Positions 2,128 through 53,461 of a stretch of 64,000 nt of DNA are shown in pieces. The translations under genes and the position numbers were made by a program. The notes under the pieces were generated by a model, which saw only the letters and a list, made by a program, of their open reading frames with translations, was not told the DNA's origin and did no database searches. The first letter of the stretch is position 1; every line of letters begins with the position of its first letter. Origin of the DNA: Arthonia radiata (Eukaryota > Ascomycota > Arthoniomycetes > Arthoniales > Arthoniaceae); contig PSQN01000004.1 of assembly GCA_002989075.1 (NCBI GenBank), positions 124,001 through 188,000 on the forward strand, in the 5' to 3' direction.

Positions 2128-5100
2128 ATGGAGTATCCCACCCGGCAAACAAAAAGCTCGAGAACACTCGTCCAAGCCTTGGATCTGTGGGTCAAGGTCA
2201 AACCGGACAAGATCTGGGCTTGCTTGCCAGAGTCCTCGAACATTGCCGATGGACTGCGCTACGTCACCATGCGCGAGGTCGCTTGCGCTATTGACTCCTT
2301 CGCATGGGCGTTGAAGGAAGAATATGGGACTAGCAGTGACTTCGAGACTATCGCATATGCTGGTGTCAACGATTTGCGATATGCCGTAGTATTCTATGCA
2401 GCTATCAAATGTGGCTACAAGGTGCATCGACAGCTCTACGGACCGTCCGGATCTCTTCTTACGATAGCTGACTGGTGCTTAGACGCTCATGTTGTCACCG
2501 AAGAACACTCCGCAGCAGAACGCCATCTTGATGCAGACCACTAATTGTCGCAAATTCTTCTTGTCTCCGGAGCTCGCACCGATCGCGAAATCGGTCCAAT
2601 CTCAATTATCTGATATTACTGTGCAAATGGTCGAAGAGTTCGACCATTGGCTTGATAACTACACGCGGCACTTTCCGTTCGAGCGTACCATTGAAGAAGG
2701 TGCTTGGGATCCCATCTTAGTTTTACACAGTTCTGGTTCAACAGGTATGTGCTATTCAAACTGTACGACAATACGCCCATTCTGATGTTTTCAACTGCAA
2801 AGGCCCGCCCAAACCTGTCACCATCAACAATGGCTACTTCGCTTCGTCTCATGCATATATGCAGCCACCTCCTGGACGAGAGCTGTCTGGAATGCTGGCG
2901 TTTGACTTTGAGGGTGGTGGTCCCTTCTTTGCGCCTTTTCCGTGCTGTCACTTGGCGGGTTTTGCGGCCACATGTGTCCTTCCTGTTTACGCTGTTGAAT
3001 CGAGTGTGATATTTGCGCTTCCGGATAGACCAGCCACAGCACAACTGGCTAAGCAGATCATGGAGCAGATTGAGGTACGAGGGACGTATGCCCCACCCTC
3101 AATCATCGAACAAATATCGGCACTACCGGGAGGCATGGAACTACTCGGACAGCAAGAAGTGATGATATATGCAGGCGGGCCGTTGTCTCGAGCGTGTGGT
3201 GATCGGCTGGTCAAGCATGGCGTCAAAGTGGCCACAATATTCGGCTCGACCGAGACTGGTCCAAACAAGACGCTCATTCCTCACTCTGACGACTGGGCCT
3301 ATCTCGAGTTTCACCCCGATTGGGGCAACGACATGCAACTAATCATGGACGACGCTCACGAGCTTGTGTTTCACAACGATGAAGCGGATGCGCATAAACG
3401 TGGCATCTACTGGACGCATCCGCATCTCAAAGAGTACCGCACCAAAGACATGTTCAAGCGTCATCCGACGAAACCTGGTCTTTGGACATTCTTTGCACGC
3501 AATGACGACATCATAGTGCTCTCTAATGGGGAGAAATGGAACCCCTTGCACACCGAAGGCATTATCTTGAACCATCCCAAAGTATCTGGCGTTCTGGTTC
3601 TCGGTGATAGGAAGCAGCAGCCTGCGGCACTGATTGAGCCAAAAGAGGAAGTTGACAGTGCTGAGGCGTTCATTGAGGAGCTCTGGCCGCTTATCGATAC
3701 AGCGAACGTTCAGTCACAGAGACAAGGTCTCTTGATGCGGTCCAAGATAGCCATCGTAGAGCCCAGTGGGCTTGTCAGAGCGGCGAAGGGCACTGTGGTG
3801 AGGAGGCTCACTTTGGAGAAATACACCAACCTTATCGACCGGTTATACGGAGAAGGTATGAACGGCGACTACTTTTCCGGCCCCGCACTAGGAGATTTTG
3901 GCAGCCTTCGCGACAATCTTCAAGTCTTCGTTCGTGACTGCGCGAGAACGTTGTCACCTCTGTCACATGATGGCTTCAACGACGAGGATGACTTCTATGT
4001 CAACGGCCTGGATAGTGTCCAGACAGTCGAATTCACGCGCATGCTCAAAGCAGGCTTGAAGCCGAAATATGGTGAGCTTCGTTGGCTGACAGGGCAAACT
4101 ATCTTCGATTTCCCATGCGTCGCCAATCTCGCTGATGCTTTGGAGACCTTTATCACACAGGAAGAGCCCTCTAGTGGGGACACATCACACGCAGCTATTG
4201 CAGCGGTGGAAAGCATGATCAATAAATACACCTTGGCGTTGCTCCCTGCGCTGTTTGACATACAGCAGATAGCACCTCAGCCAGGCCAGATCACAGTCGC
4301 CCTGACTGGTGCGACTGGTTCGCTGGGCATCCGCTTACTTCAGTGTCTCCTTGTCTCACCGCAGATCCGCCACGTGTACTGTCTCGACCGAACTGACACG
4401 GCGCGGACACGCATTCAAGCCGCCATTCCTACCTTCGACATGCCGTCCTCCAAAGTTACCTTCCTGACCACCGCGTTTGGAGACGCTCAGTTCGGCTTCA
4501 CATCGCAGGATTACAGCGGGCTCCTTCAAGAAGTTGATGTTATCATTCACAACGCCTGGAAAGTCGACTTCAATCACTCACTTGCCTCTTTTGAACCTGT
4601 GCATATTCGAGGCGTTGCGAACTTCATTCGCTTCTCTCAGCTATCAGCCAGGAGACCGCGCATCATGTTCGTCTCGTCGATCGCGTCTGTGGGAAACTAT
4701 CATGAGCCGCGCAACCAGTGGGAGCCTGTGCCTGAGGAAATCCTTGTCAACCCCAACGTCGCTCAGCAGATGGGTTACGGGCAATCAAAGTATGTCGCGG
4801 AGCGTGTGCTCGCCGCAGCGCCGGTCAAGGCAGGCGTACCTGTCACCATACTACGCTCGGGGCAGATCGCAGGCCCCATCGGCTTGTTCCCTGATGCTAT
4901 GGGTCCGGCGTGGAACAAGAGCGAATGGCTACCGTCCATCATTGAGACGTCGCGCAACCTAGGCTGTATCCCTGGGGACATGAGCGAAGTCGACTGGTTC
5001 CCCGTTGATGTATTAGGCAAAGTCATCGTGGATGATCTCCTCACCTACGATCTTCTTGGCGATCCAGCACACACCCAGAAGCAGGAAGCCACCGTCTACA

Positions 5101-5447
5101 ATCTTACAAACCCCCGTCTCGCACCCTGGAGTGGGCTGATGCAAACCGTACAATCACGGTTTGGTGGGTCGAAAGCATATCCAATCGTGCCTTGGGAATA
5201 TTGGATCAATGGTGTGAAGCAGTTCGACGTGAATAATGAGATGGCACTGACGAGATATCCCGTGCTGAAGATGCTACGATTCTTTGAGGTGGTGGAAAGG
5301 CATGACGGCAAGAGCAGGTTGGCGACGAGGAAGACAACTGCTGCGAGTCGTACGATGCAGGCGTTGGATCCGGTGAGGCCCGAGTGGATGCAGCTGTGGA
5401 TGGATCAGTGGGGCTACGGGAGGGACGCAGGAATGAGTATGATCTGA
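2128..5447 (+). CDS. NRPS-like adenylation-thiolation-reductase enzyme
   Basis: Exons 2128-2421, 2483-2744 and 2803-5447 keep phase and give 1066 residues. The introns are 61 and 58 nt, and the first has the less usual donor GTGCAT. The adenylation domain shows SSGSTG (about residue 182), IFGSTETGP (331), YRTKD (397), NGEKWNP (about 427) and the A10-like AAKGTVVRR with its lysine near 514. A carrier domain follows with GLDSVQ; Ser590 is the expected phosphopantetheine site. The C-terminal third is a thioester reductase (NAD_binding_4 type) with the nucleotide loop GATGSLG (688) and the YxxxK pair at Tyr844/Lys848. Such enzymes activate a carboxylic acid, tether it and release it reductively as aldehyde or alcohol. 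There is no condensation domain. The substrate cannot be told from sequence, and no other biosynthetic gene sits beside it. Confidence 0.93.
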
Positions 5448-27917: not shown

Positions 27918-29695
27918 GTCGTATCCGTTGCTCTGCAACGACGCCCATCATATTACCACCATGCACAGTGCAGAGCTTTCGAGACCCATCACAGACTGAG
28001 TTTATGAGCCCTTTTCAGGACGGTTCAATTATTCCGAGCTTTAAGGCAGGTAGGAAAGCATCTGAAGAACGGCATATGTCAAATGGGATTTCTTTTGAAA
28101 ATGCGCACCGCCAGAAAGGTGGCTTATACTCAAGCGTCAGGCACGGGATGGTCGTCCCAGTCCATAGTTTGCATTGGTCGAGGGGTCCACCGGCCAGCGG
28201 CGAATGTACAGCGCGAGGCAGATGCGGCGCAGCAGGCCAGGCCTAATTACTTGGTACATTACCTGAGAGCGAGACTCGCAAAGGAGACAGTCCGTTAAAG
28301 ATAAGGTTCCTAGGAAGAAGCATTGGCGATAGATCTCGAGCTCAGATAAAGGAGTGTCGATGATACGCAAGAAGAGCTCTATCGTGCGGTGTCTTCCAGT
28401 GTCTGGTCATGGTAGAAGACTTCGGTTTGGATAGTCTCAGTACCTCAGACCTGAACGTGGCACCCGCATGCGTATATGCCTAAAAAGGAAATTAGCTCAA
28501 GCTTCGATTCAGCTTCCGTTCAGGGTCTAAGCCTAACTTGCAGTACTTTGGTAGTCGGCACTTTTAGCTTTAATAAGGGATAAAAAAGCTTCGTTCTGCC
28601 TCTCCTCTTAGTATTTTGCTAAGAAATTTAGCAGAGCTATACTTTCGGCTACCCTTTACAAGCTAACGCTTTTTATTTTTTAAGTATTCTATAAGGGGCT
28701 CAGGACCGTAGAGTTAAACTAGAAGAATTAGATAGGGTTGTATAACTTTAAGGGCTTAGTAAGCTTTATTCTAGCTTTCTAAAAACTCGACAAGACTGTT
28801 TTTTTCTTCCTTTTTAGCGCCTATTATACCTATTATAATTTTAAAAGATTGTGTAGATAGCTCTTCTTTCTATAAAAAATATAATGTTGCTCTTTTTTTA
28901 GAAAGCTTCTATGTTGCAATATAGTTTCTAAGAGTACTACGTATTCTAATTTCTTAGCGCTAGTGTTATGTTGCGTAAAACCTTTATTTATAGCTTTCTA
29001 AAAAAAGAAAAAAAATCTAAAAAGTGCAATTAAATTGTAAATACTAAACGTAGAGCGTAACGTTAGCCGATAAGCGATCTAAGACAGCCGATATATCGCC
29101 TAGTAAAGAGTAAAAGTGTCGACTGTTAGCGATTTACTAACAAAATTTAGGCTGATTACTAAAAATGCTGTAATTTGGGCTTAGGCACTCCGCTATTTAA
29201 TTGTTGTCCTTCCTGTTTTGGTAGTTTCTAGCTATATTTGGCCGTGCGCAGGGTCCTGTGTACCGTGCTTTTTGGCCTTGGCGCGCTGGTAGGAATATTT
29301 GCGATTGCTGGAGCGTCTGAGGCCACTGAGACTAGGTTTGGAGTGCGACATAAAAAGTAAAAAGTAGGTAAGATGTCGATGCGATCGGGTCCAGATTGGC
29401 GAGCCGCGGATTGGTTCCGCTGTTGGGCGTCAGCCTTGAGGTTTCGCGCATTCAGTCCCCCCTTCGTACCCCAAACATGGACACATCGGGGCCCAATATC
29501 AAGGCCAAACTCCCCCAAATAATAGCCAATTAGGTTCGCCGTTTGCATTGGAACCGAGGTAACAGCTCACAGAAATACGTGCATAGTCAAGCTGTACAAA
29601 TCGATTTCTCACCTGTGCAGACAACAGAGATTCGCGCTGCTGGCAGCGTGACTTTCACCAAATATATGGAATGATCAAAGGCACGATAGACCACA
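27918..29695. other. Gene-free region with an AT-rich island
   Basis: A gap of about 1.8 kb between divergently oriented genes. It holds the promoter of the helical-domain gene at its left, an AT-rich island (listed separately), and at the right about 470 bases of normal composition leading to the carboxyltransferase gene. Short frames at 28083-28298 and 29228-29548 are not convincing. Confidence 0.6.
28480..29225. repeat. AT-rich, probably RIP-degraded repeat remnant
   Basis: Base composition shifts sharply here: runs such as tttttattttttaagtatt and aaaaaaagaaaaaaaatc, many TA steps, and almost no open frame on either strand. Flanks on both sides are of ordinary composition. This is what repeat-induced point mutation (C to T change in duplicated DNA, a Pezizomycotina process) leaves behind. 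No terminal repeats, domain or family can be recognised, so the original element is unnamed and the remnant is old. Confidence 0.65.
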
Positions 29696-31474
29696 ATGAG
29701 CGATGCCGATCCTCCCCAGCCCACTCCCAATGGCACAACCACCCGCGCCAATGATCGCCTAACCCAGCTCTCCTCCCACATCCAGCCCCATGCGCCGCGG
29801 CGCCGTCACAGGAAATCGTCAAACGACGACCCGCCAGCAGACTACAGCGATGTCCTCTCCCAGCTATCCACCCTCCGCAATCTCGCTAGCACCCCAGACC
29901 CTCACCACCGCGGCTACGCCCGCCACAAGGCCGCCGGAAAGCTCTGGGTCCGCGAGCGCGTTGACGGCCTCCTCGACGCGGGCAGCCTGCGCGAAGTCGG
30001 CAGCGTCGCCGGCGATGTTACTTGGGAAGAGCAGAACCACATAACAAAAGACGGGCAAGAGGTGAAGCGCGACGTTCCCACGTCCTTCACGCCCAGCAAC
30101 AGCGTCCAAGGCTTCGGCGCACTCCATGGTCGGAAGATCCTCTTCACAGCCGACGACTACAGCCTGCGGGCTGGCCATGCCGATGGCGCGCTCGCGGAGA
30201 AGACGCTGTACGTGGAGAAGCTCGCGCTGTCCCTCCGCTTGCCCATTGTCAAGCTCGTGGATGGCTCTTCGGGCGGCGGCTCCGTCACGACGATTCGCAA
30301 GCAGGGCTTCAGCTATGTCCCTCCGCTGCCAGCCTTCGACACCGTAGTCAAACAGCTCAACGCCGGCATCCCCAACCTCGGCGCTGTCCTCGGTCCGGCC
30401 ATCGGCCTAGGCGCCGCACGCGTCACGATCTGCCACTTCTCCGTCATGGCCGGCGACATCGCCGCGCTGTTCAACGCGGGCCCAAAGGTCGTGAAAGACG
30501 CCACATTCGAAGAGGACCTGACACTGCAAGAGCTCGGAGGGCCAGATATGCATTGCCGCAACGGGACGATTGATAATTACGCGCCCAACGAGCACGCGGC
30601 CTTCGAGCAGCTCCGCACCGTACTCTCTTACCTCCCGAACTCAGGACTCTCAGCACCGCCCATGCTCCCCTCCTCCGATCCACCCACGCGTAAAGACACA
30701 TCCCTCCGAACGGCCATCCCCCGCAACAAATCCCGCATGTACAGCATGCGCCACATCATCACCACCATCACCGACGTCTCCTCCTTCTTCGAAATCGGCA
30801 GCCTCTGGGGCACGACCGTCATCACCGGCCTCGCGCGGCTCTCCGGCCAGCCTGTAGGTATCATAGCCAACAACCCCGAGTCGTCCACGGGTGGCGCGCT
30901 CGACGCCGCGGGTTCGCAGAAGATCACAAAACATCTCAAGTTCCTGGATGTGTTCAACATACCGTTGCTGCAGTTTGTGGATGTACCGGGATATGCGGTA
31001 GGGACCGTGGCAGAGCGGTCCGCGACGATGAAGTTTGGTGTGGAAACGGCGCTGGCATATTATACGACGAGTATGCCCGTGTACAATGTACTCGTGCGGC
31101 GGTGCTATGGTGTGGCGGGAGGTGTGATGATGGACTGTCGAGACCCTAGGATGCGGGTGGCGTGGCCGTCTGGAGACTGGGGAAGTCTGCCGTTGGCGGG
31201 TGGGATTGAGGCGAGCCATGCGCATGAATTGAGGGAAGCTGCGAAGGAAGGCGGGGAGGAGGCGGGAAAGAGGAGGTATGAGGAGTTGAGGTTGGAGTAC
31301 GAGCGGCTGATGAACCCGGTGCGGACGGCGAATGCGTTTGGGATTGAAGAGGTGGTGGATCCGGCGGATACGAGAGGGTTGGTGTGTGAGTGGGCGGAGG
31401 AGTGTTACGTGGAAGCGATGCAGATACGATTAGCGGAAAGGGTGAGTGGTAAAGTGAGGCCCCAGTTTGCATGA
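29696..31474 (+). CDS. Acyl-CoA carboxylase, carboxyltransferase subunit
   Basis: One exon, 592 residues. The fold of biotin-dependent carboxyltransferases is clear: ARHKAAGKLWVRERVDGLLD (75-94), GGPDMHCRNGTIDNYAP (281-297), the CoA-side motif SGQPVGIIANNPESSTGGAL (383-402) and LLQFVDVPGYAVGT (424-437), then VRRCYGVAGGVMMDCRDPR, where other members have YGGAY. This subunit moves the carboxyl group from biotin to an acyl-CoA. It differs from methylcrotonyl-CoA carboxylase beta in the region KLVDGSSGGGSVTTIRKQGF. The N-terminus is acidic and polar (MSDADPPQPT), not a mitochondrial presequence. Residues 21-29, RLTQLSSHI, come within one residue of the PTS2 consensus. The biotin subunit gene follows 450 bases downstream on the same strand. 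The acyl substrate is unknown. Confidence 0.93.
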   Translation: MSDADPPQPTPNGTTTRANDRLTQLSSHIQPHAPRRRHRKSSNDDPPADYSDVLSQLSTLRNLASTPDPHHRGYARHKAAGKLWVRERVDGLLDAGSLREVGSVAGDVTWEEQNHITKDGQEVKRDVPTSFTPSNSVQGFGALHGRKILFTADDYSLRAGHADGALAEKTLYVEKLALSLRLPIVKLVDGSSGGGSVTTIRKQGFSYVPPLPAFDTVVKQLNAGIPNLGAVLGPAIGLGAARVTICHFSVMAGDIAALFNAGPKVVKDATFEEDLTLQELGGPDMHCRNGTIDNYAPNEHAAFEQLRTVLSYLPNSGLSAPPMLPSSDPPTRKDTSLRTAIPRNKSRMYSMRHIITTITDVSSFFEIGSLWGTTVITGLARLSGQPVGIIANNPESSTGGALDAAGSQKITKHLKFLDVFNIPLLQFVDVPGYAVGTVAERSATMKFGVETALAYYTTSMPVYNVLVRRCYGVAGGVMMDCRDPRMRVAWPSGDWGSLPLAGGIEASHAHELREAAKEGGEEAGKRRYEELRLEYERLMNPVRTANAFGIEEVVDPADTRGLVCEWAEECYVEAMQIRLAERVSGKVRPQFA

Positions 31475-31924
31475 TGATATGTGTTTATGATGTAATGATT
31501 TACGTGTACAGCTAGAAAGGTTATGGCATTGTGTATATCCATAAGTATATAGGCGAAGTAGCTCTTGAAGAGCACGAGACCAGTTCATGAGCCTGCGAGG
31601 ATGTGCAGAATGTAGACTACGCGGTAGGAGTGTCAAGCTTCATAGTGTTCCTGAAAGGGCTGAGACTTGTCTGTGACTACACAATAGCCAGCCTATTGCG
31701 AACCAGACCTTGTACTGGAGATCACGCATCATACGTGAGACATTGTAATTATCCTTCACCAGCTGATGGGGTGCCATGAGCCCCTCGTCGACAGCTCCAA
31801 AAGTTGTCCGAGGTTGACTGCACCTCAATGAACACTTCCAGATGCAAACCAGGGCCACGCCCAAACATCTGCCCGTCGGCTTTGAGAAGCAACAGTACAT
31901 GTGCTCGCCAAAAGCTCACCCACA
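31475..31924. other. Spacer between the two carboxylase genes
   Basis: A gap of 450 bases holding the terminator of the carboxyltransferase gene and the promoter of the biotin carboxylase gene. The two genes run head to tail, so they do not share a promoter. No coding frame is convincing. Confidence 0.45.
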
Positions 31925-34112
31925 ATGTCACAACCCACCCAACGGCCGTTCAAGACCCTCCTCGTCGCCAATCGCGGCGAAATCGCGGTCCGCATAATAA
32001 ACGCAGCCCGCGAACAAAAACAGCCCATTCAAGTCTTCGCCGTCGCGTCACCAAATGACACAGCGCATACACTTGCTTTACCACCAAGCCAAGTCCTGCA
32101 GCTTCCCAGTGCGAGCGACCATCTGAACATCGATCTGCTCATCTCGCTCGTGAAGAAGCACCAGATTGAAGCAGTGCACCCCGGCTATGGCTTCCTCTCC
32201 GAGTCGGCGGAGTTTGCACGGCGCATGTGGAGTGAAGCTGGTGCTGTGGTCGTTGGACCGGGACCTGAGATATTGGAGCGGACTGGGGACAAGCTTGCGG
32301 CGAGGCGGTTGGCTGAGGAGTGTGGTGTCCCTGTGTTGCCGGCGATGGTGGAACCAACTGGTGAGGTACAAGATGTGAGAGCTTTTGTGGAGGCTGTTAG
32401 CTTGCCGGTCATGATCAAGGCGGTTGATGGTGGCGGAGGCCGTGGCATAAGATTGGTGCGTGGTTGCATGCCCCTGCTGTTGCGAGTCGCTTGCGCCGCC
32501 CCAAGTGCTGGCGTTATCTCAAATGAGCTGACCTTGAGTCAACGCCTCGCGAGACTCAGTGCTATTCTCTGGACGTAATGCTGACGTGTCGTCGCAGGTC
32601 AAGGATGCTGCTGATCTTGAGAGCTCGTTCAGAAGAGCGGTCGCAGAGAGTCCTTCCCGACAGGTATTTGTGGAGAAAGCCGCGCTTGATGGCTTCCGTC
32701 ATATCGAGGTCCAAATCATCGGCGACGGGACAGGTGAAATAGCACACCTATGGGAGCGTGAGTGCTCCATTCAGCGGCGGTATCAGAAGATCGTTGAGAT
32801 AGCGCCGAGCCCAGCGCTCCGTCAAGGCAGTGGTAGTGAGCCCGTTGCCAATATCATTGACGCCGCCGTGCGCATGGCGAAACACATCAAATACCGGAGC
32901 CTAGGAACTTTCGAGTTCCTCGTCAACCCAGACATGCAGGAGTTCTTCTTTCTTGAAGTCAATCCGCGGTTACAAGTGGAACATACCATTACCGAGGAAG
33001 TTTCATCAGTCGATCTTGTGACGCTTCAGCTCTGCATCGCTCGAGGAACATCTTTGCCCTCGTATCATGCCTCCAGCATCCAGCAAACGCTACAAGGCGC
33101 TACTAGAGAAACAGCACTCAAGCCTCCTCATGTGTACTCAGTGCAATTTCGCATTACAGCAGAGAACCCGCAACAAGCATTCTCCTTGAGCATCGGCAAG
33201 ATCCGGAGCTTTTCGATGCCCAGTGGCCACGGTGTTCGCGTAGAAACGAACCTCGTGTCGGGCCACGACTGCTCGGTGTCCGCAGACTTCGACAGTCTTC
33301 TGGCAAAGATCATTGTTACTGCGGGTGACTGGCCTAGTGTGATTACCAAAGCTCGCCGCGCCCTAGAGGACACCAGGATAGACGGCGTAAAGACGAACAT
33401 AGACGTGCTGAGAGCCGTTGCCGCAAGTGAGGACTTCGCACGATCTACTTACGATACTCAGTGGTTGAAGCAGAATCTAGACCGTCTGATCATGGATGGC
33501 GAGCAGAGCTCGAGAACACTCTCTCAGCGTCCAATAGCGCGGGCCAGATCTTCTGGTACAACGTCCGAGTTGTCCGGCATGTCCAGCTCGTCCGCGCTGC
33601 TTCGTAAAGGCGACGCATGGAATATCACCCTGGCGCCAGCTGCGAGGCAGCGTGAGCAAGCTGGACCTGAAGCTCGTCACCTGCTGAGGTTGACACGAGT
33701 ATTAAGGAACGAATTCCCGTCATTGCTGGCAGCCGAAGTCGAGTATACTACACCCGGATCGCGGCAACCGCAGCAATATCGCATGACTGCAGGTACCACT
33801 TCTGCATCCGCTCTAGCTGGATCGAATTCTTCGATCCGTCGAGGGGACCCATCGAATCAAGGACACGTCATTGTGCCGTTTGCTGGCAAGCTTGTTGAAG
33901 TTCTAGTGGACGAAGGCGACTATGTCGAGCCTGGTCGAGTGGTCTGTGTGATCAAGCAGATGAAGATGGAACTTGAGGTTAGAGCTAAGGATCAGCAGAG
34001 AGGCCTTGTCAAATGGGTGACAGAAGTCGAAGACGGCGCCGAAATTGACGAGGGAACGTTAATTGCAGAATTGGACTTCAACATTAATCAACAGGTTCCT
34101 GCTAAGCTCTGA
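31925..34112 (+). CDS. Acyl-CoA carboxylase, biotin carboxylase and biotin carrier subunit
   Basis: Exons 31925-32455 and 32598-34112 (142-nt intron, donor GTGCGT, branch GCTGAC) give 681 residues. The biotin carboxylase core shows LLVANRGEIAVRII at the start, HPGYGFLSESAEFARR, the ATP-grasp loop DGGGGRGIRLV across the intron, FRHIEVQIIGDGTGEIAHL, ECSIQRRYQKIVEIAPSP and FLEVNPRLQVEHT. The C-terminal carrier domain has QMKM with the biotin lysine at Lys633; most carriers have AMKM. There is no mitochondrial presequence (MSQPTQRPFK starts right at the core). The last three residues are Ala-Lys-Leu, a canonical PTS1 peroxisomal signal. The stop lies nine bases from the convergent Erd2-like stop. 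With the neighbouring carboxyltransferase it should form a heteromeric acyl-CoA carboxylase; substrate unknown. Confidence 0.94.
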
Positions 34113-47010: not shown

Positions 47011-50000
47011 TCATATACGTCGTCGAAGCGTAAACTTTTTGTTGCCCGCGGACACAGGCGCCGGTAACGCCTCCGCAAAGGCGTCTCGCTCTGCAAAGGC
47101 TGTCAGTTAGGATCGATAAAAAAGAGATCAGGGTCTGCATACCTTGCTCGGTGCGAAAAGAGACAGTAATGTCATCATCTGCGGCACTGTCAGTTTGTGA
47201 AATCCGCGTCGACGTGCTAGCACGGCTACTGACGCTCTTGATTGTAGTTTTCAGTCTCGAACGTTGTATACTTCGCACCGGCGTCCCGCACCGCCCCATC
47301 TTTGACAGGGTCGTCCTTACCAGATCCAGGTAGCACAAACTTGGCGTCAACCAGCTTGACACCCGGACCCAGCGACTTGCTGTCTGTCTGATCGAATCTA
47401 TCAGTAGCGCGTAACTCAAAGTTAATGCCATCGGCCAGAATGTAGTCATTGAAGAAGGCAATAAGCTGCGTAACACGCTCTCGCTCGACGATCTGCACGC
47501 GCGCTTCTTTGGACTCCAAACTCTTTGCGATGACAGAGCCGGGCTTCCGACGAGGGATCGAAAAGCTGGCAGCGATTCCGTCATACTTGACAGCGAAACC
47601 TGTCACAACTCTTTGAAACGTATGGAGGTCTTTCAGGTTAGCGAAGCTGTACACCGAAACGTGCGGGCCCGAAGAAGCAATATCGAACATCTGTCGAAGT
47701 TCGTTAGATGCCGATGGGTCGGGACCAACAGCGATGGTGAGGTCTTGACGTCCGGTGCTTCGGTAAATGTGCAGTTGCTCTTTTTGCGACATCTCTACCC
47801 TAATCTTGAAATCGACCACAGCGTCGTTCAGTCGATCGACGATACTCCCGGTCCGATCATACATCATGACTCTAAGATTCTGAGAAGCATCTGCAGACGA
47901 GGTGAGATGGAGTGGATCCGCGGGGTCGTCTTCGTCGATGACTTGAATGCTGCTCCACCTGACAATGGCTGGTGCTAGGTTCGTTGCGGTCGCTCTGCTA
48001 AGCGCTAGGCTTTTGATCGGCAATTGGCATAAGACGCTTTCTTGATTGCCCAGCACAGTCCCAGACAGTAGATCGCGAAACATGTCCCTTTGCGATATGT
48101 CCTCAAACACCATATGTGCACTCCTGCGCCGCCCAACCTCATTCAATTGAAATTGTAGACTCGGCTGGCTACTCGAGACATTGTATTCGAAAGGGGCGGT
48201 TTTACCGAGACTTACATTGACGTTACGAACGGTCTTCTCCAAGTTGACGACGGCGAAGCGATAACCCGCATGTACAGTTCGAGGGTTGCGGCCAGACTTG
48301 ATCAGCTGCTCGAAGAGTGCGGCTCGACACACGCCCACGGGATCGGAGGGGAATTCGTCAGGATGCGCTGTGTCCCTGTATTGAAAGCTACGTAATCTCA
48401 GGGTCTGGAGTAGCTGCTCATTCTTCTTCGGCATGAGAGACTGCGAGATCCTCTGCGAATTATCGAAGAAGTTCCATAAGAAGTTGTAGTCCCTGTGGGA
48501 GCAGAACAGCTTCAGTCGTAGCTTTTGAGGTAATTTGATTCGAAATGATCTTTCCTCTTCTTCGAACTTTGTGTGCTCCCAATGGACCCCTTGCTCACCA
48601 GCTGCGCGAATATAAACATTCAAGTCACTGGATTGTGAGCTGATCACGACCTCAGCTTCTGCGGACGACTTCCCTCGAACAAATGACAAGACACACTCGA
48701 ATGGCTCGACAGTGGGCTTCTCCTCCCCGAGCGCGACGGTTGCGGACACAAATACTCTGCCATAACAGTAGCTCGATCGTGTATCTTGCAAAGGTATCGC
48801 AGTCATAGGCTCCATATCGGGCGTCTGTCGTGGAGGTGCGAACACCTTGCCGCTCAACACCCACTGCCAGTCAGCCGGTAACTTCTCAAAGGTCTGCGGG
48901 ACCCAGATACTCGAGTCTAGCCCTTGTATGAACTTCTCCTGCGGCGGTGGTAAAATGTCGTGCCTCCGCATTAGAAGACATAGAATCTTGAAGGCATCGT
49001 CCAAAGTACCGCAGGCCGCATCCACACTACTCAAGCTTTGAGAGGGCGGACATGATTTGGGATCCGATGGGGTATTGTTCAGCAAGTGCGGAATGATCTC
49101 GGTTAGCATCCAGTACGATTTAGCGAGGTTCAGGTGATGTTGCCGCAACGAATCCGGGGCGAGTGTTTCATTAGAGTGACGAGGTGACGCTCTTTGCGAG
49201 GCTTGGAATCTAACATGACCTTCGATACCCTCTCGCCCTTTGAGGAACCACCACAAAGCGCAGCGCGTCCAATCGTAGACTGTCACATGAAAGCCCGCGC
49301 TCTCCGCAGCAAGCCTGAAGATCGAGCCTGATCCGGACACCGCGGACGCGAAGTGTGTGTAGGCTTCCTCGGCACTGGGATCCTTAGCTATTGATAATGG
49401 CCTTCCATCGCCAGGAGGCTTATTTGATTGCTGCCGGATGTTGAGAGGTTGGGGCCGTTCGAAGGAAGCTGGGTTGGGAGCACGTGATCCGTGTGCCACA
49501 GAAGTCTCATTTGCAGTTGGCTTATCGTGAAAAGATGGTGGCAAAGACTCCTGTGACCCAACAGCCTTCCTCTGAAGCGGATTGGGTCTTTGTTGTTGTC
49601 CATGTGAGCTTGCGGGTGGCGTTAGGAAGTTAGCGCTTTCAACAGACGCTACAGAGAATCGATGGTGCGGAGGTAACGAGGCTGGCTCAGGCGAGTGGGA
49701 GTATCGCGAGCGCTCCGAGTCTCCACTGCGAATGGAGTCAAAACTCGAGCGTGCCTGCGTAGAGTACGGCGGTGGAGCCTCAAGACCGGAAGAGAGCTTC
49801 GACAGGGCTGTGGCTACCGAATCGTTGCCACCTGAGATGCTATGAACACCTTGTACGCTTGAACGATGGACGAGACCTTCTTCAGCTCTCATCTTCTTCA
49901 TACTGCCGCTGTCAATAGGTGACCGCATCTCTGGTGGCTGCTGCATGCGCGATTGAAGCTGTCTCTCCGGACGTCTATTCGGCGAGGCACTATGGGTACG

Positions 50001-51044
50001 AAGCGAAGGACGAGCATGTTGGTCTCGAGGGAGGTCTCGATCGGGTGCTGCTTCAGCCACTATCTGAGGTGGCGCCTTCTCTGCGCCGGATAGCGGCTGT
50101 TCACCTGGTGCGGGGTGGGAGTACGTGTTCGTCAGGATCTGCTGCATTTGCTGCTCATAGGAGGCTTGCTGCTGACGAGAGCTGGGGGGAGACTCTGGAC
50201 TAGCCAAATGAAGCTCTGAGGACAGATCCGCTCCCTGCTGCTGATTGTCTTGCGCCTCGTGAAACCTAGTGGGAGCTCGCCGCAAAGGTTTTATGATTTC
50301 TTCCTCGTCGCGAAGGCGATCGTCTTGAGTTCGTCCTACCACGAGGCCGGGTGATGGATAAGGTACTAACGAAGGCTTTCTTCGATGTGGCGAGACGGCA
50401 GGCGGAGTCGGTTGTACATCATACCTTGGTATAGTGTCGGAGGGCGGAATGGGTGAGTCCTCCGCCATGCCAGTGGGCGCTCGTCGTAAGTGTGGTGGAA
50501 CAGGTGGTTCTTCCAGAGAAGGACGGTGATAGGAAGTTTTACCAGCAGCTTGGCGCCTCATAGACTGGTTCAGTGCACGTCGTTTCCCAATCGTAGCAGG
50601 CAACTCTTCTGATTCGTCCCCACCCTCGCCGATAACATCGGCTGGACCATCGAAGAACCCAACTGACAGACCTGGTTGTCTCGACGGCTTGTGAGGCGTC
50701 CACTTACCAGACATCATGTCCTCTCGAGTGGGTGCGTAGGACGGGATGGCACCCTCGCCGCCCACTCGCGCTGACGTGCTGTTCAAGAAGCCGCCCTCGC
50801 TTGCTGTGAGTGCACTATGCGCTTTTGCGGCGGAGATGTCCAGCTTAGGGCCCGAGGGACTGGACAAGCTCGTGGAAGATCCATTGCTAGGACGCAGAAA
50901 CTCATCAACATCAGAGTCGTTTGAGTGTTGACGCTTGAATTTCGAGAGCATCATCTCTTTGTCGAATATCTTGCCCCTCAATTTATTCCATCCCTTGGAC
51001 TTTGAACCTTCGTTCTCCTCCGATCGAGGGAGTTCGTCTGCCAT
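47011..51044 (-). CDS. Large unknown protein, disordered N-terminal half
   Basis: Exons 51044-47234, 47178-47143 and 47099-47011 keep phase (55- and 43-nt introns) and give 1311 residues. The 36-nt middle exon adds HDDITVSFRTEQ and the last exon ends NKKFTLRRRI. The first ~600 residues are Ser/Pro/Gln-rich and look disordered. From about residue 610 (SAEEAYTHFASAVSGSGSIF) to the end the protein is folded, with helical then beta-rich segments; two stretches such as LHIYRSTGRQDLTIAVGPDP and VSVYSFANLKDLHTFQRVV look PH-like. The family is conserved in filamentous fungi in my recollection, but I cannot name a function. The frame stays open upstream of the chosen ATG for about 230 bases, so an extra 5' exon is possible. 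Confidence 0.8.
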
Positions 51045-53461
51045 GTTGAAATGTTGAAGGATCACTCTTTGCAGCGACTCAAGCCACTGTTCACACAATT
51101 CGTCCTCAGAGACGTCTTGCTTCGGCCGAAAGTCCTGCTGGGCACGTGCTCTCCCGATTTCTTCCCAATTGCAATTGCCCCAGGCGCCCAGATCAATCAC
51201 GGTTCCAGAGGGATGCTGACGCTCATCTCGACTCTCGAGACGCTTTCCGCGAACTTACTGCAACGTCTAACGCTCTTCTGGCCTTATCGAGTCATCGGCG
51301 TCTCCTTGTGCAGGACCAACGTCATTTCTGTTGCGATTCGAAGGCCACCGAGATCTCAATTCGAGTCAGTCGACTTTCCTATGGTACCTCGATCACGTGG
51401 CGAATAGTATCTAGGGCGCGCAGGCGTTGATTGATCGCAATACGAGGCGTTGCGCGTTTGACACGTTTCAGGCGTCTTGGCATTGACCCTAGGAGAGAGC
51501 AGGGTAGGCGGCGACTTGGTCAAAATTCGTGCTCTGCCGACGTCGTCGAGGTGTTTGTCAATGAAAGGGTATTCCACAAAGCACGTTAACTGCTCGAACT
51601 ATGTCGAGATATTCAGACTGTCAAAAGCATGTATTTCCATTGAATAGGCATGTAAACCGAAGGGTATGCCCGCTCTGATAGTGACATTGTAAGCACGCTA
51701 TGCGCAACGATCGCCCATTTACCGAAAGAAAGAAACCATCAACTATGAAACTAGCACAGGCTCACAACAGTGTCGATACCTTCAGCGAAGTAGGTGCGTG
51801 CTTCGAGGTGACTCGCAAGAGGTTTGTTTGAAAGCTCGAATCTGGCCCCAACAGCCAGTTGTCCTCTGCAAGGATTGCTCTCGGTAGAAGGATGCGCAGG
51901 ATCTCTTTCAGCTCGTACACCAGTGGGAGCTGCAATTTGCATGAGGAAGTCCTTATTAAACGGAATGTGTATCTGATTCGGTGATGAAGCTAGATCTGAG
52001 ACGCCCCATTGAAGTTGTGATACACGTTTGTACTTCCGTTTGCGGCGGGGGCGAGTTCGGGCAACGTTCTTCATCGCCAGCACCCCAGCGGAACATGATT
52101 GCACTCCACGGGGTTCGACCGCACACAATGGCTCTGCGCTTCTTGCTTACGGAAATGTGGCTATGCCCCCGTGGAAGCGAAGGCAATATACTTGCTGTTG
52201 GTCGGAACTTGGAAACGGGCAACTCCGCCTGCGGAACGGAGACCCCAACGGTGCTGCACCAAGGCGCCTAATCTCCCGTTTCCCGAAATCCCCAATAGCT
52301 GATTTGGTCTAAAGATTAACCGTAGTACCATAAACATCTGCTCTATCACGAATCCCTCGGCATGCTGGGAGGATCCCGTTTCAAACGCCGTGACTGTAGT
52401 GGAGAGTATTGACTAGATCGAGTGTGCTGTTGTTCGGCCATCCTCCACTTTCGGAGCAATTTGATAGGTGTATGCCTATGGGAGGATCTGTCGCTCGGAA
52501 GATGAAGACATGAAAGCCCACAGCTGGTAACAAAATGTCATATATCCCCAAGAGCCACGATGGGATGGAGCAGAGCAGAGCAGTACATCTGAAGCAGTAT
52601 GTCTCAAATCGAATTGTATGGTCGCGTTGCTGTTTTCGTGGCGAGCAGGAACATCACCAGCCAGGTACATACCTGACTTGTGTTGCTTTCCGCGGCGTTT
52701 GATCTGACACGGGCAGCAGCACATTGATGCAATGCTCATGAAAGCCTCAAATCAGCTCAGAGCTACCGCCGGCACAACGGATACGAGTATCTTCTGGTTA
52801 GTCCCGGCGTTGAACGATCCGGGGACCAGGATACCAAAGAACGTCAACGGAGGGACGTCGGCGCCTGTGAACCCATCATTCAGGTAACTCCACTACCTCT
52901 CAATCCTCAACCATATCGCATGTTAGTCACGCCCTCATGGCGTTGCCGGCAAAGAGCTGCTTTGGACCTCTGCTGTTTCGAGATTGCTACATGCAGAACA
53001 CGATGTGCTGACACTTTAACTGATAAGATCTCCATGGACTGGACACACCGTCGAAGGGATGCGAGATGTGCTGAAAGGTGACTTGCCACGCTTGGACGCA
53101 TTCGTCAAGCCAGGAACGTTCGTATGCCTGGATGACAGAACAGTCTCCGACGGCACGATTTGCTGGGTCGACTGCCAGACAGAAAGCTGCGACAAGGTCC
53201 GTGCCAGTGCTAGAGCCACAGCGCGTCATCTGTCTGTGGGTACAAGCTGGCAGTTGGTGCGGATTGCATGGGAGGAGACGAAGGAGAAAAACGGAGACGT
53301 ACTTGACGACGTTCGGACTTTCTAAGATTAGCATTTGACGCCCTGTAAGGCTGATGGCATAAATGCTTGGCATTGCGTTCAGGGATACGTGCCGTCTGTC
53401 CTTGGACCTTCCCGTCGGATTGTACGATTAGAAGATGTAGCTGGCGCCAGACAGTCACAGC
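51045..53461. other. Long region without a confident gene
   Basis: About 2.4 kb between the start of the large minus-strand gene and the Gup1 gene. It should hold both promoters. Many frames of 60-130 codons overlap on both strands; the longest is minus strand 51751-52128 (125 codons), with a basic start but no known domain. I see no repeat or tRNA. A small or multi-exon gene here cannot be excluded. Confidence 0.45.

Follow-up and report, generated by a model that had tools for sequence, protein, structure and literature searches.

Our analysis of a 64,000-nucleotide stretch of the Arthonia radiata genome (assembly GCA_002989075.1, contig PSQN01000004.1, positions 124,001 to 188,000 of the forward strand), the whole of which is referred to here as the window, revealed two adjacent genes that probably encode a two-subunit, peroxisomal acyl-CoA carboxylase of two-lineage ancestry, acting at the alpha carbon of saturated acyl-CoAs. 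One gene encodes a carboxyltransferase (CT) and the other a biotin carboxylase (BC) followed by a biotin carboxyl carrier protein (BCCP) domain. The pair is real as a gene pair and far beyond chance; open reading frames (ORFs), Pfam domains, and conserved alignment columns confirmed the original prediction for this DNA, namely that a CT gene and a BC/carrier gene with intact core motifs lie 450 bp apart on the same strand. The CT carries a single domain (Carboxyl_trans, PF01039, E 3.9e-79) and its frame is preceded by an in-frame stop two codons 5' of the ATG, while PF00289, PF02786, and PF02785 of the BC region and Biotin_lipoyl (PF00364) are all found on the other subunit, which would reach 681 aa once spliced. 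The single BC-BCCP intron was placed from the reading frame and protein alignment, and had gone unmentioned in the original prediction. Identity with Acc1 was ruled out, as Acc1 is one chain of more than 2000 aa with a central domain and the window holds two genes encoding 592 and 681 aa; the distinction from Acc1 drawn earlier is thus borne out by the layout.

In the enzyme we propose, the two proteins would be subunits of one biotin-dependent acyl-CoA carboxylase, with the BC-BCCP subunit carboxylating the biotin of its carrier domain from bicarbonate with ATP and the complex presumably carboxylating saturated acyl-CoAs at the alpha carbon. The CT would derive from a bacterial family in which we found no characterised member and the BC from the lineage of single-chain long-chain acyl-CoA carboxylases (LCC). 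The BC protein would enter peroxisomes, the compartment of fat breakdown in fungi, through a C-terminal AKL (peroxisomal targeting signal type 1, PTS1) and the CT through the PTS2-like stretch RLTQLSSHI, so that the likely substrates would be acyl-CoAs of peroxisomal beta-oxidation. The mechanism is ordinary for the superfamily, and it is the combination of lineages and the likely compartment that are unusual.

Bacterial relatives of the carboxyltransferase

The closest relatives of the window CT were bacterial. In a set of 72,556 plasmid records, the top-scoring relatives had 34-41% identity to the window CT along most of its chain. A pattern scan of a genome collection returned at least 593 stretches, at least 536 of which encode a relative (E up to 1e-3), though these need not all belong to the same family; the best 80 of these, with 38-45% identity to the window CT, were kept and came from Acidobacteriota, Chloroflexota, Bacillota, Actinomycetota, Pseudomonadota, and others. 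Viral contigs gave 26 pattern matches and no relatives. Members of the family, annotated as "carboxyl transferase domain-containing protein" and including proteins of Tistrella, Cupriavidus, and Diaphorobacter plasmids and of an Acidimicrobiaceae metagenome-assembled genome (L022), share with the window CT 37-45% identity, the signature LVDGxGGGGSV, and an RP near the C terminus; unlike the window CT, the aligned members do not carry its 48-aa extension bearing the PTS2-like motif. Residues G190, G193-G195, S196, and V197 of the window CT were common to all 30 aligned bacterial rows, indicating that the window CT has the KLVDGSSGGGSVTTI stretch in common with this bacterial CT family. The departure from the beta subunit of methylcrotonyl-CoA carboxylase (MCC) that had been predicted at this stretch is real and is likewise common to the window CT and the family. 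The window CT matched 80 and differed at 12 of the 92 columns invariant in the 30 bacterial relatives.

One alternative is that the pair represents a diverged mitochondrial MCC or propionyl-CoA carboxylase (PCC) of the fungus, which would account for the layout of BC-BCCP and CT on two subunits, a layout typical of MCC and PCC. The search scores argued against this: in phmmer the window CT matched the bacterial family at up to 431 bits, as against at most 211 for PCC rows and 142 for MCC rows, and its PDB sequence matches reached 213 bits for beta subunits of the acetyl-CoA carboxylase (ACC)/PCC type, compared with at most 154 for MCC and 118 for geranyl-CoA carboxylase (GCC). The CT tree, comprising 61 rows after thinning at 70% identity (134 before) and anchored with human MCC-beta and Pseudomonas aeruginosa GCC-beta, had PCC, MCC, and GCC beta rows labelled from one PDB search each and the tree itself. 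It placed the window CT inside the bacterial family (family branch 100/100, two inner branches 100/99), as sister to L022 and to L039 from an unclassified bacterium (99/98). Approximately unbiased (AU) tests, run for MCC and PCC, rejected joining the window CT to MCC rows (p 1.7e-63) or to PCC rows (p 6.7e-54), and in the tree it did not group with the P. aeruginosa GCC beta subunit.

The predicted structure of the CT (mean predicted local distance difference test score, pLDDT, of 84) had ACC and PCC beta subunits as its best Foldseek matches. PccB, AccB, and AccD5 share this fold and are of the alpha-carbon type, but they form a separate clade, from which the AU test excluded the window CT. 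At the position of Gly476 in the window CT, PCC has the Asp of YGGAYDVM, which we take to be Asp422 of PccB, presumably with a role in specificity, and 26 of the 30 bacterial rows have Ala. The CT pocket thus differs from that of PCC; variants of PccB D422 occur in PDB titles. Among PDB folds, the 50 top matches listed for the CT were ACC, PCC, and transcarboxylase structures and further CTs of the alpha-carbon type, consistent with alpha-carbon chemistry in terms of the alpha/gamma-carbon split among CTs described in PMC4673880.

Lineage of the biotin carboxylase and evidence for partnership

The BC tree was built from 57 BC domains, after removal by hand of 17 loci (copies or truncated) and exclusion of pieces shorter than 380 aa; alpha rows were labelled by adjacency to labelled beta genes, and pyruvate carboxylase rows only by length and the lack of a CoA-type CT. 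In this tree, the window BC was sister to 11 single-chain BC-BCCP-CT proteins (100/99), one of which (L160) matched the LCC of PDB 4rcn at 1082 bits, which gave these proteins the label LCC-type. The window BC was separate from the rows of MCC-alpha, PCC-alpha, and pyruvate-carboxylase-like proteins, and AU tests rejected its placement with each of these three (p 4.4e-5, 0.002, and 0.0025, respectively). With both subunits thus placed outside MCC and PCC, a diverged mitochondrial MCC or PCC is highly improbable on present sampling. For both subunits, the trees and AU tests supported the prediction that the pair is a heteromeric acyl-CoA carboxylase other than MCC, as human MCC-beta and the bacterial MCC rows all lay outside their groups; the alpha/beta layout is shared with MCC and GCC, whereas the trees separated both window subunits from the clades of these enzymes.

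The CT domains of eight single-chain LCC-type proteins formed a clade of their own in the CT tree (100/100), separate from the window CT. The window BC belongs to the LCC lineage and the window CT does not, indicating that the two subunits derive from two different bacterial proteins. As in LCC, BC precedes BCCP in the fungal protein; unlike LCC, which has its CT on the same chain, the fungal protein stops after BCCP, and its BC and BCCP are separated by a segment of about 120 residues that could not be assigned. This segment occupies the position of a BT docking domain, and its model had pLDDT values mostly below 50 and began with one long helix, predicted at low confidence; Foldseek matches of the low-confidence exon 2 model were disregarded as evidence. 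The biotinylation motif reads QMKM in the window; it was located in 32 bacterial ORFs, of which some are copies of one gene, and there MKM was preceded by Ala in 29 and by Ser in 3. For one LCC, a substrate range of C2 to C16 acyl-CoAs has been reported (PMC6491548).

A further alternative is that CT and BC are neighbours without being partners. In that case, the CT could act with another carrier or as a subunit of a decarboxylase or transcarboxylase, and the BC with another CT. Favouring such independence, the nearest BC relatives have their own fused CT, and among 80 genome loci of the CT family, with 8 kb flanks sought and many loci shorter, a full-length BC gene lay near the CT in only three (L054, L064, and L069), each of another BC type; a 102-aa BC-like piece was found at L082 and a small carrier ORF at L036, L043, and L079. 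Arguing for partnership, a BC gene lay within the flanks at eight of the nine plasmid CT loci fetched, the fungal BC has kept its carrier but has no fused CT, the two genes lie 450 bp apart on one strand, peroxisome-type signals occur on both proteins, and a CT domain was absent from all 10 further window ORFs scanned. We regard neighbourhood without partnership as improbable. The plasmid BC neighbours weaken "orphan" as a label for the CT family, and leave the two-lineage ancestry and the targeting signals unaffected.

On two Cupriavidus plasmids (L003 9971-14960 and L004 9866-14837), the CT gene is followed directly by a single-chain LCC-type gene, an adjacency that is possibly the bacterial form of the partnership in the window. 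ORFs near these two genes resembled by eye a CoA-transferase and a binding protein of a tricarboxylate transporter. Across 120 Pseudomonadota genomes, five had a window-type CT (E below 1e-140) and ten had an LCC-type CT (E below 1e-160; eight of the ten in open frames longer than 1100 aa), the two co-occurring in three of the five CT-bearing genomes (hypergeometric p 0.004, on small numbers uncorrected for kinship). The pairing in the window makes LCC-type biotin carboxylases candidates for partnering bacterial CTs of this family that have no adjacent BC gene. A constant partner that might point to the substrate was sought among 113 of 114 listed ORFs flanking bacterial CTs (between 90 and 900 aa long and within 600 bp), and none emerged, with AMP-binding ligases the most frequent at 9/113. 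An Achromobacter plasmid operon (L166, 190-9773) contains a CT gene, an acyl-CoA dehydrogenase gene, a BC gene, and an AtuA-like acyclic terpene utilization gene.

Targeting signals and likely compartment

The BC protein ends in -QQVPAKL, and its terminal AKL is of the PTS1 type; Histoplasma capsulatum prefers AKL, SKL, and ARL as its PTS1 tripeptides (PMC13343957). About the first 48 residues of the CT have no counterpart in the aligned bacterial relatives; the L022 frame does stay open for a longer distance in the 5' direction, but where its protein starts is uncertain. Within the part of this extension predicted to be disordered (to residue 34) lies RLTQLSSHI, which is identical at five of nine positions, with similar residues at the others, to RLSQVTSHL, the PTS2 of Histoplasma Pot1; in that fungus, the first 40 residues of Pot1 directed TurboID into peroxisomes (PMC13343957). 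By composition, a protein would end in [SACP][KRH]L with a chance of 0.29%. For a relaxed PTS2 pattern, drawn up after the motif was seen, the chance was 0.22% in a run of 50 random residues and, when the CT extension was shuffled, 0.04%; for a very loose pattern, the values were 2.8% and 1.1%, respectively. The presence of two signals on two partners, at the correct ends of the proteins and in stretches absent from the aligned bacterial relatives, makes a peroxisomal enzyme the likeliest reading. The absence of a mitochondrial presequence from both proteins, claimed by the original prediction, agreed with our inspection by eye, but the peroxisomal-type signals had been overlooked.

The same two-subunit carboxylase could be cytosolic, with the AKL and PTS2-like stretches being fortuitous. 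The single fungal sequence would allow this, as would the last position of the nonapeptide, whereas the low chance values and the location of both signals in stretches without bacterial counterparts speak against it; on balance, we consider a cytosolic enzyme unlikely, though it is the most serious of the alternatives.

Several observations weigh against a peroxisomal carboxylase built from these two partners. The strict PTS2 consensus has L, A, or F at its last position, and the final I of RLTQLSSHI lies outside it; the relaxed pattern that accommodates the motif was a post hoc one. The signals are known from one fungal genome, which alone cannot prove localisation. No BT domain was recognisable in BC residues 471-590 by blastp, phmmer, or PDB search, with nothing significant returned, so that docking of the BC to the window CT is putative. 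Both window proteins sit on long terminal branches (CT 1.51, BC 1.26). The BC neighbours of the plasmid CTs were mostly of other BC types (six of the eight loci with a BC), the 15 CT-bearing genomes first searched had a recognisable LCC-type protein in 7 cases and none that we recognised in the other 8, and the co-occurrence in Pseudomonadota, small as it is, falls to 2/4 (p 0.03) without the centre genome, which had been chosen for carrying the CT. In addition, the proteins consistently detected as natively biotinylated in lysates of Histoplasma were two, interpreted as pyruvate carboxylase and MCC (PMC13343957), so an enzyme of the proposed kind was not seen there.

A fuller version of the peroxisomal carboxylase can be put forward tentatively, as a possibility that falls somewhat short of the general reading: a peroxisome-resident ascomycete carboxylase in which an LCC-type BC may have shed its own CT, with the subunits imported separately by PTS1 and PTS2 and (alkyl)malonyl-CoA made in the organelle. 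If a peroxisomal carboxylase is true, fungi would make malonyl-type CoA esters beside beta-oxidation. Our search of the open-licence literature, at the level of titles and the beginnings of abstracts, found no report of a fungal peroxisomal acyl-CoA carboxylase. An up-regulated "acyl-CoA carboxylase" is listed for Acremonium (PMC4131913) and a "PCC alpha" gene for Fusarium (PMC6804420), in both cases without a sequence in the available text that could link it to the window pair. Acyl-CoA carboxylases are given no function or compartment in the available text of Lombard and Moreira (PMC3199775); the window pair traces one such carboxylase to bacterial ancestors and assigns it a probable compartment that can be tested.

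Feature coordinates and neighbouring genes

Table 1. Features of the carboxylase gene pair, in window coordinates
Feature	Position	Strand	Description and basis
CT gene, beta-type	29696..31474	+	592 aa, intronless; Pfam, tree, and fold
CT N-terminal extension	29696..29839	+	About 48 aa; alignments; residues 1-34 predicted disordered (pLDDT < 50)
PTS2-like nonapeptide	29756..29782	+	RLTQLSSHI, CT residues 21-29; likeness to Histoplasma Pot1 PTS2
KLVDGSSGGGSVTTI motif	30251..30295	+	Common to the bacterial CT family as LVDGxGGGGSV
BC-BCCP gene	31925..34112	+	ATG at 31925
BC-BCCP exon 1	31925..32455	+	
BC-BCCP intron (predicted)	32456..32597	+	GT..AG, 142 bp
BC-BCCP exon 2	32598..34112	+	Pfam and tree
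BC-to-BCCP segment	33477..33836	+	BC residues about 471-590; in the position of the BT domain
MKM biotinylation motif	33960..33968	+	Residues 632-634, Lys633
C-terminal -AKL	34101..34109	+	PTS1-type tripeptide

Among the 10 other window ORFs scanned, those nearest to the pair are a partial endoplasmic reticulum lumen receptor ORF, just downstream on the opposite strand, and an importin-11-like gene; no gene resembling an acyl-CoA pathway component stood beside the pair in this set. Just 5' of the CT gene, positions 28001-29240 have low G+C and A-rich runs and may be a decayed repeat, with a G+C content of 0.469 over 28001-30000 compared with 0.533 for the whole window. Elsewhere in the window, the ORF at 2859-5447 carries AMP-binding C-terminal and NAD_binding_4 reductase domains of the adenylate-forming reductase type and is unlinked to the carboxylase, and a large ORF at 47226-51200 carries DUF7611 to DUF7614, four in tandem.

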